A stretch of 64,000 bases of DNA, taken from contig CAMDNE010000006.1 of assembly GCA_945902745.1 (NCBI GenBank), positions 1 to 64,000 of the forward strand, in the 5' to 3' direction. The translations under genes were made by a program, and so were the position numbers. The stretch comes from Chitinophaga pinensis. GTDB taxonomy: Bacteria > Bacteroidota > Bacteroidia > Flavobacteriales_D > Crocinitomicaceae. Below the pieces are notes generated by a model that worked only from the letters and a program-made list of their open reading frames with translations, searched no databases and was not told the origin of the DNA. Shown in pieces: positions 32,170 through 33,288 of the stretch. Positions within the stretch are counted from its first letter, which is position 1. Each line of letters starts with the position of its first letter.

Positions 32170-32199
32170 ATCCCTTCCAAAATCTGAAGGGATTTTTTT
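32170..32199 (+). terminator. Rho-independent terminator
   Basis: ATCCCTTC and GAAGGGAT around an eight-base loop followed by eight T. Confidence 0.85.
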
Positions 32200-32238: not shown

Positions 32239-32268
32239 TTGTTTTTTAAATTTACTTATCTAACTTTG
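32239..32268 (+). promoter_or_regulatory. Promoter of the leader/PP2C transcript
   Basis: TTG (32239-32241), a 19-base spacer, then TAACTTTG (32261-32268) match the Bacteroidota promoter. The transcript should begin near 32273-32276, at the start codon of the leader ORF and about 160 bases before the phosphatase gene. Confidence 0.75.
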
Positions 32269-32273
32269 CCCTA

Positions 32274-32357
32274 ATGAAAATGACGCAGAAATATTATTTC
32301 AATTGCAATCTATGGCGAACCATGAGTCGCTTTAGCGTCATGATGATGGCTTGCTAA
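32274..32357 (+). CDS. Putative 27-aa Met/Cys-rich leader peptide
   Basis: ATG at 32274, TAA at 32355-32357. The peptide contains YYFNCNLWRTMSRF and ends SVMMMAC; six of 27 residues are methionine and two cysteine. It starts at the predicted transcription start, so it would be translated from a leaderless mRNA. Its 3' half overlaps strong RNA hairpins. Composition and position suggest a leader peptide that senses charged Met- or Cys-tRNA, but there is no direct proof and the downstream gene is not a sulfur-metabolism enzyme. It could also be an untranslated accident of an RNA element. Confidence 0.45.
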   Translation: MKMTQKYYFNCNLWRTMSRFSVMMMAC

Positions 32358-32377
32358 AAAGTAAGCACTGAGTTACT
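32280..32377 (+). promoter_or_regulatory. Structured 5' leader with alternative stems
   Basis: Stem A pairs ATGACGC (32280-32286) with GCGTCAT (32335-32341). Stem B, CATGAGTCGC-TTTA-GCGTCATG (32321-32342, two-base bulge), uses the same 3' strand. Stem C is GCTTGCT-AAAA-AGTAAGC (32349-32366) and contains the leader stop codon. Stem D pairs AGTAA (32360-32364) with TTACT (32373-32377) and excludes C. The mutually exclusive pairings resemble an attenuator, although no U-run terminator follows. Confidence 0.5.
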
Positions 32378-32436
32378 ATTCTCTTTGAAAAATAGAACAA
32401 TCCAATAGTTTTAAGTTTTACCGAATATCCATTGTC

Positions 32437-33288
32437 ATGGAAACATTGATCTTACAAGAAGATGGTGTATCAACAGTTGAATACACTCAAAATGAACTTT
32501 TGCAACGTATTGCATATTTAGAGGAAAAATCTGCTGAAATGCAAGAAAGCATTCGCTATGCTGGTAGTTTACAATTGTCAATATTGCCAAATCAACGTGT
32601 GCTTCAAAACATTTTTAATGACGCGTTCGTGTTTTTCCAACCGAAAGATGTTGTAAGTGGTGACTTTTACTGGACGTTTCAACACAACGATGATGTCTAT
32701 TTTGCTGTTGGTGATTGTACCGGTCACGGCGTTCCTGGAGCTTTGGTAAACATTGCAGGAACAACTTTATTACGTCAAATAATTCGTTTGGATGGAGTTT
32801 CAGATCCAGCACTCATCATGAGAATATTGGATTACGAATTGGTAAGTTTATTCAATGATAACTTGACGGAAGGAACACGAAAAGACGGAATGGATATCGT
32901 TTTTTGTAAATTCAACTTACGTAAAAAAACAGGTTCTTTTTGTGGTGCAGGTCGACCTTTAATTTTGGTACGTGATGGAGAATTGGTGGAATTCAAAAAA
33001 GGTGCTGATGCAATTGGTTACAGTTCCGATGGAGAGAAAAATTTCGAGACGATTCATTTTTCCTTGGTTGAAGGAGATCAGTTTTACTTGTTTACGGATG
33101 GTTATACCGATCAATTTGGTGGTGATAATGTGAAGAAATTCAACCGAAAACGCTTTAGAAATTTATTGCAATCGCTAGATGGTTTTGCCTTTGACAAACA
33201 GAAAAAAGAATTGGAATTGTCGTTTAACAATTGGAAAGGAAACCAAGAGCAAATTGATGACGTTTGTTTGATAGGGGTAAGAATATGA
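32437..33288 (+). CDS. SpoIIE-type PP2C serine/threonine phosphatase
   Basis: This 283-aa cytoplasmic protein is a near-minimal SpoIIE/RsbU-like phosphatase. A short coiled coil (~15-45, RIAYLEEKSAEMQESIRYAG) leads into LQLSILPNQ and the metal-binding motifs DVVSGDFYW, VGDCTGHGVPGALVNIAG and FTDGYTDQFGG. The Asp residues in these coordinate Mn/Mg in PP2C enzymes. Many Bacteroidota homologues are fused to TPR or sensor domains; this one stands alone. It probably dephosphorylates an anti-sigma-antagonist-type partner, none of which is seen nearby. It is preceded by a ~160-nt leader (see 32274). Confidence 0.92.
   Translation: METLILQEDGVSTVEYTQNELLQRIAYLEEKSAEMQESIRYAGSLQLSILPNQRVLQNIFNDAFVFFQPKDVVSGDFYWTFQHNDDVYFAVGDCTGHGVPGALVNIAGTTLLRQIIRLDGVSDPALIMRILDYELVSLFNDNLTEGTRKDGMDIVFCKFNLRKKTGSFCGAGRPLILVRDGELVEFKKGADAIGYSSDGEKNFETIHFSLVEGDQFYLFTDGYTDQFGGDNVKKFNRKRFRNLLQSLDGFAFDKQKKELELSFNNWKGNQEQIDDVCLIGVRI

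Follow-up and report, generated by a model that had tools for sequence, protein, structure and literature searches.

What does a short open reading frame at the predicted 5′ end of an mRNA do for the serine phosphatase gene that follows it? The question is raised by positions 32239 to 32436 of the window (the whole stretch of DNA analysed, 64,000 nucleotides; the promoter, leader and phosphatase gene lie on its + strand), which the original prediction described as an attenuator-like leader with an ORF rich in Met and Cys. Comparison with relatives leads us to a different reading, in which the leader appears to be a switch, hitherto undescribed, by which the cell reads its translation status. 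The position of the promoter, the upstream ORF (uORF), a rule for its residues, the pairing of a pseudoknot behind it and the spacing of the parts are conserved in this comparison.

Promoter and predicted leaderless uORF

A Bacteroidota-type promoter is located at 32239 to 32268, with a TTG element at 32239 to 32241 and a −7 box, TAACTTTG, at 32261 to 32268. Since the TAnnTTTG box of Flavobacterium psychrophilum is positioned at −12 to −5 (PMC9723704), transcription is predicted to start at about 32273, one base 5′ of the ATG of a 27-codon uORF (32274 to 32357, MKMTQKYYFNCNLWRTMSRFSVMMMAC, stop codon TAA at 32355 to 32357). Such a leaderless start would be unusual, because about 5.5% of the mapped mRNAs of F. 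psychrophilum are leaderless (PMC9723704) and, in B. thetaiotaomicron, about 3.7% have a 5′ UTR shorter than 10 nt. A good intrinsic terminator at 32170 to 32193 of the window (8 bp stem, T8) closes the upstream gene for a T9SS-sorted protein, so that the leader forms its own transcription unit.

The window belongs to a Flavobacteriales genome whose nearest relatives fall in Crocinitomicaceae. A search of 240 Crocinitomicaceae genomes gave 21 orthologs of the phosphatase, the one from this genome included (E < 1e-85), and 399 genomes taken from the order yielded none outside Crocinitomicaceae at E < 1e-72. Alignment of the upstream regions places a TAnnTTT(G/A) box at the same position in 20 of these 21 orthologs. 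In 19 of them a start codon 4 to 18 nt past the box opens a frame of 24 to 36 codons; measured by box spacing, the uORF start is 0 to 14 nt from the predicted transcript start across the family. The probability that a start in the first 15 nt of a shuffled leader opens at least 24 codons is 0.05 to 0.12 per leader; the nominal counts overstate independence, as clades share ancestry. The two exceptions, G150 (L064; 7 codons, near a contig edge) and G157 (L068:2270-2450; 4 codons), are draft genomes in which the phosphatase gene is intact, and G157 retains the pseudoknot described below. Both the promoter and the 27-codon ORF named in the original prediction are thus present in the sequence, and the conservation of the ORF in relatives, on which that prediction had been staked, is borne out. 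The run of three Met codons through which methionine was to be sensed is found only in the closest species.

Composition of the uORF peptides

The peptide sequence drifts fast, codon changes within clades being mostly non-synonymous. Its composition is far more constant. Asp, Glu, Gly, and Ala together account for 3.3% of the residues in the family uORFs vs 14.2% in dinucleotide shuffles kept open, and Trp, Cys, Met, and His for 23% vs 14% (0 of 500 shuffles in either case); Arg is likewise plentiful. When this DNA is read in its two other frames, Asp, Glu, Gly, and Ala make up 17% to 20% of the residues, with no depletion. Val is not depleted in the uORFs, which argues that selection acts on amino acids and not on G at the first codon position. 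Two positional preferences accompany the composition. Among 13 clade representatives, 10 have a Cys within the final five codons (2.7 expected) and 11 have a Trp at codons 13 to 19 (1.5 expected), and neither count was reached in 1000 shuffles. The position of Trp from the start is fairly constant, and its distance to the end ranges from ~8 to 22 codons. A conserved run of one regulated amino acid is absent from the uORFs, in which the residues are mixed, and so is a polycysteine tract, there being usually a single Cys near the end. Synonymous codon choice in the uORFs is no rarer than in shuffles. As a separate observation, Val is encoded by GTC in 86% of cases in the uORFs vs 8% in the genes of the window, and ATA, which encodes 21% of Ile in the window genes, is absent from them; this bias may stem from RNA pairing or from decoding.

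One explanation for such peptides is a nascent chain that arrests the ribosome in response to a specific ligand or drug, in the manner of TnaC or the Erm leaders, or that acts in trans. The peptides are basic and aromatic, contain Cys and are nearly without acidic residues, and the steady position of Trp from the start would suit an arrest; the variable stretch from Trp to the end is ill-suited to a fixed arrest motif, and non-synonymous changes predominate within clades, with a length that varies from 24 to 36 amino acids. We regard this explanation as very improbable. That the sequence drifts at fixed composition is easier to reconcile with a supply sensor than with a specific peptide. The low content of Asp, Glu, Gly, and Ala could also serve a property other than supply, for example charge.

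RNA structure within and around the uORF

Taken as a single sequence, the leader in the window has an unremarkable fold (z −1.6; 13 of 200 shuffles fold equally well), and no U-run terminator is seen in its sequence or fold. As the MAFFT alignment of the pseudoknot lost register, pairings were assessed across the family by a strand-swap permutation test instead. The best supported element within the uORF is an inner hairpin carrying the Trp codon (32305 to 32330, with a core pairing 32311 to 32315 with 32320 to 32324), which gives z 3.5 to 4.1 family-wide and is equalled by 1 to 2 of 20000 permutations. The Trp codon does not keep to one part of this hairpin: some species have it on the 5′ arm, others on the 3′ arm or in the loop, and base pairing therefore does not explain the presence of Trp.

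The original prediction had proposed four stems, A to D, all of which are present in the window sequence. Stem A (7 bp, 32280 to 32286 with 32335 to 32341), which closes the middle of the uORF, is kept in near species of the same genus and is not supported family-wide (z 1.3 to 1.5). Stem C (32349 to 32366), whose loop contains the stop codon of the uORF, is similarly local, being kept in the closest species and giving z 0.3 to 0.8 in the family-wide test. The remaining two fail in close relatives: in the alignment, G021 and G023 lack an intact stem B (CATGA/TCATG), and G023 and G155 lack an intact stem D (AGTAA/TTACT). The strand that stem D would use is the 5′ strand of the conserved H-type pseudoknot. 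We also considered an 8-bp pairing, seen in the MFE fold of the window, by which the uORF sequence would hide the phosphatase start; family-wide it does not rise above permutations, and the strand-swap test found no conserved alternative pairing that links the uORF with the phosphatase start.

Pseudoknot behind the uORF stop codon

A predicted H-type pseudoknot with an A-rich loop between its helices occupies 32370 to 32395. Helix S1 pairs 32370 to 32372 with 32381 to 32383, and S2 pairs 32376 to 32380 with 32391 to 32395, both being short (3 and 5 bp) and AU-rich in the window. The interval between uORF and gene can form such a pseudoknot in nearly all orthologs, with a poor fit in G148 and an ambiguous one in G150. 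S2 is rewritten from lineage to lineage (CUAUU/AAUAG, CCGUU/AACGG, CAGGU/ACCUG, CCGAU/AUCGG, GAGG/CCUC, etc.), and a given loop generally matches the tail of its own clade better than the tails of others: the summed score for such pairing is 172 vs 126 (SD 9) in cross-clade permutations, of which 0 of 100,000 reach 172. This covariation backs the pseudoknot.

The spacing is equally regular. From the uORF stop codon to the pseudoknot there are 9 to 12 nt in 16 of 19 genomes (16, 17, and 21 nt in the other three), and from the pseudoknot to the phosphatase start 58 to 69 nt in all 19. A ribosome with a stop codon in its A site covers ~10 nt beyond the stop, as known from toeprints, so the knot would lie at the leading edge of the terminating ribosome. 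The near-constant distance from the uORF stop to the phosphatase start, 67 to 86 nt, also speaks for another arrangement, in which ribosomes would enter at the 5′ end, translate the uORF to its stop and start again at the phosphatase gene, the number that cross being tuned by the pseudoknot and the uORF being a constitutive enhancer or damper that senses nothing. Reinitiation has been put forward as a general role of leader peptides (PMC4833913). A gap of some 70 nt interrupted by a pseudoknot is long for reinitiation, however, and the strong residue rule would be left unexplained; we consider this arrangement unlikely, yet the least unlikely of the four rivals discussed here.

Small H-type pseudoknots such as preQ1-I and SAM-II are riboswitches, and the knot might itself sense a metabolite, an ion, temperature, or an RNA-binding protein, with the uORF only keeping the 5′ region open or folded. 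The retention of the knot in G157, where the uORF is degenerate, and the conserved AAUC tail are in line with this. The loops and both helices vary between lineages, though, leaving no fixed pocket, and Rfam 15, which includes preQ1-I and SAM-II, gives no match at the gathering score, its weak matches (three species, E up to 5) falling mostly outside the pseudoknot. With the residue rule of the uORF unexplained and a second family doing without a knot (see below), a sensing pseudoknot appears improbable to us, somewhat more so than plain reinitiation.

Phosphatase gene and initiation region

Behind the pseudoknot, 32396 to 32436 holds a conserved AACAAUC tail followed by a U/A-rich, G-poor stretch that would serve as the initiation platform, as judged from the alignment; across the family, G makes up 7% and T 50% of the last 30 nt upstream of the phosphatase gene. 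The gene itself (32437 to 33288, 283 amino acids), which we presume to be the regulated one, encodes a SpoIIE/PP2C-type serine phosphatase with matches to Pfam SpoIIE (E 4e-20) and PDB 6k4e (E 6e-32), the NCBIfam SiaA match being below cutoff. It is therefore outside sulfur metabolism, as had been pointed out originally. No conserved operon is present, the neighboring genes varying in size and strand among relatives. SpoIIE/PP2C phosphatases are strongly expanded in some relatives: G028, G029, G033, and G046 have 30 to 39 genes with such a domain, and other relatives one or none.

Second family and searches for the same leader

In another family of the order, all five PAS-PP2C orthologs found carry a uORF of 22 to 25 codons at the promoter (L030:1034-1102, L033:1034-1111, and upstream of the genes in L124, L125, and L126), with peptides such as MKSTLNRTYCFWRHCMHKSIIG and MKISSKISRTYCHYWHFMSMLIIK. 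The PP2C groups of the two families share 45% identity over the phosphatase domain. The residue rule reappears, with Asp, Glu, Gly, and Ala at 2.8% vs 13.5% and Trp, Cys, Met, and His at 25% vs 13% (0 of 2000 shuffles for each), in a test that is partly blind, as the first two loci were noticed partly by their composition and the other three were not so chosen. No pseudoknot is evident in these five leaders, so that the knot is not essential to every form.

The spacers of the second family (44 to 55 nt) are G-poor and C/U-rich, with 11 G vs 70 C in 253 nt. They resemble Rho sites, and translation of the uORF might control Rho-dependent termination in the spacer, the position of the ribosome exposing or covering the site; Rho is a component of the toiL system (PMC12121999). 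In Crocinitomicaceae the spacers have a lower C content (18% C, 13% G) and contain a structured knot, and no terminator is evident in the leader; we give Rho control the same low probability as a sensing pseudoknot.

Peptide-profile searches of 240 plus 39 genomes, which would miss strongly diverged copies, returned strong matches at PP2C loci only; the weaker matches inspected lie inside or between unrelated genes. The suggestion that the same leader might precede methionine or cysteine genes thus finds no counterpart among the strong matches. Pattern searches for the pseudoknot gave no more matches than reversed controls, the loop length of one pattern being wrong for the window. Scanning 1.2 Mb of G115 revealed four leaderless short ORFs ahead of long ORFs, none with the uORF profile, and in G029 18 other PP2C loci are without such a leader, gene starts lying far upstream being incompletely covered. 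No description of this leader was found in the open-access literature searched; the F. psychrophilum study describes leader-peptide attenuation upstream of amino-acid operons, a different setting (PMC9723704).

Proposed mechanism

Transcription attenuation by Met or Cys was rejected, as the Met run and stems B and D are not conserved, a terminator is missing and the downstream gene encodes a phosphatase. What stands of the attenuator-like leader is a conserved 5′ uORF amid structured RNA, for which ribosome sensing that needs no terminator is the readiest reading; the sensing of methionine, stems B and D, and the link to sulfur have fallen away. The pseudoknot, the residue rule, the regular spacing and the second family were no part of the original prediction.

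We place at about even chances the reading that the predicted leaderless uORF and the pseudoknot form a cis-acting, translation-monitoring leader that controls the PP2C phosphatase. The mRNA would open with a uORF whose codons demand scarce amino acids and seldom encode Asp, Glu, Gly, or Ala. With charged tRNAs plentiful, the ribosome would pass it freely; with charged tRNAs short, or ribosomes slow, it would stall, at the Trp hairpin or at the terminal Cys. A ribosome at the uORF stop would have its leading edge against the pseudoknot, with the knot lying between it and the phosphatase's initiation platform, and reaching the stop or stalling earlier would leave the pseudoknot region in different states. 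That state would then determine how much phosphatase is translated or what becomes of the mRNA. We infer from the conserved arrangement that the uORF is translated and that ribosomes stall on it, and likewise the signal and the direction of control. As to direction, a rise in phosphatase output upon shortage seems somewhat likelier than the opposite, the analogy being with stress phosphatases like RsbU (PMC12143880).

A more specific version, to which we lend distinctly less confidence, holds that the leader is a general sensor of amino-acid scarcity, built from a leaderless uORF of selected composition and a pseudoknot latch at the terminating ribosome, and wired to a PP2C phosphatase. Here the cheap residues near central metabolism would be avoided, shortage of any of many amino acids would stall the uORF, and the pseudoknot would act as a position-sensitive latch.

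The majority of known attenuator uORFs respond to one amino acid or a few and regulate biosynthesis. If the translation-monitoring reading is true, the leader would gauge amino-acid or translation status as a whole, and would do so for a signalling phosphatase and not for an enzyme gene. It would also be a defined leaderless regulatory switch for Bacteroidota, where leaderless mRNAs are rare, and would connect translation state with serine-phosphatase signalling in a way open to testing.

Comparison with known systems

Classical attenuators (the trp, his, thr, and ilv leaders) likewise combine a short uORF containing scarce residues with leader hairpins; unlike them, the leader described here has no terminator, no run of a single codon and no biosynthetic gene. 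The preQ1-I and SAM-II riboswitches share with it a small H-type pseudoknot with an A-rich loop in a 5′ leader, but the knot here is without a covariance-model match, varies in helices and loops and sits behind a uORF stop codon. The toiL uORF of E. coli topAI is also short, precedes a non-biosynthetic gene and has been proposed as a multi-stress reporter of translation (PMC12121999). In toiL a structure covers the ribosome-binding site, whereas pairing of the start region does not exceed permutations in our family, and toiL is not of the leaderless type, has no pseudoknot at the stop and is unrelated in sequence (PMC12121999).

Among the systems compared, the mycobacterial attenuators with leaderless polycysteine uORFs (Canestrari et al. 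2020, cited in PMC9031893) have a short ORF at the transcript start and an amino-acid-responsive reading, both of which are predicted for the leader here, and share with it Cys codons near the end of the ORF. They differ in that the uORFs described here have one Cys and no run, contain many other scarce residues, are followed by a pseudoknot, and precede the gene of a signalling phosphatase, in place of a sulfur operon, in a Bacteroidota host.
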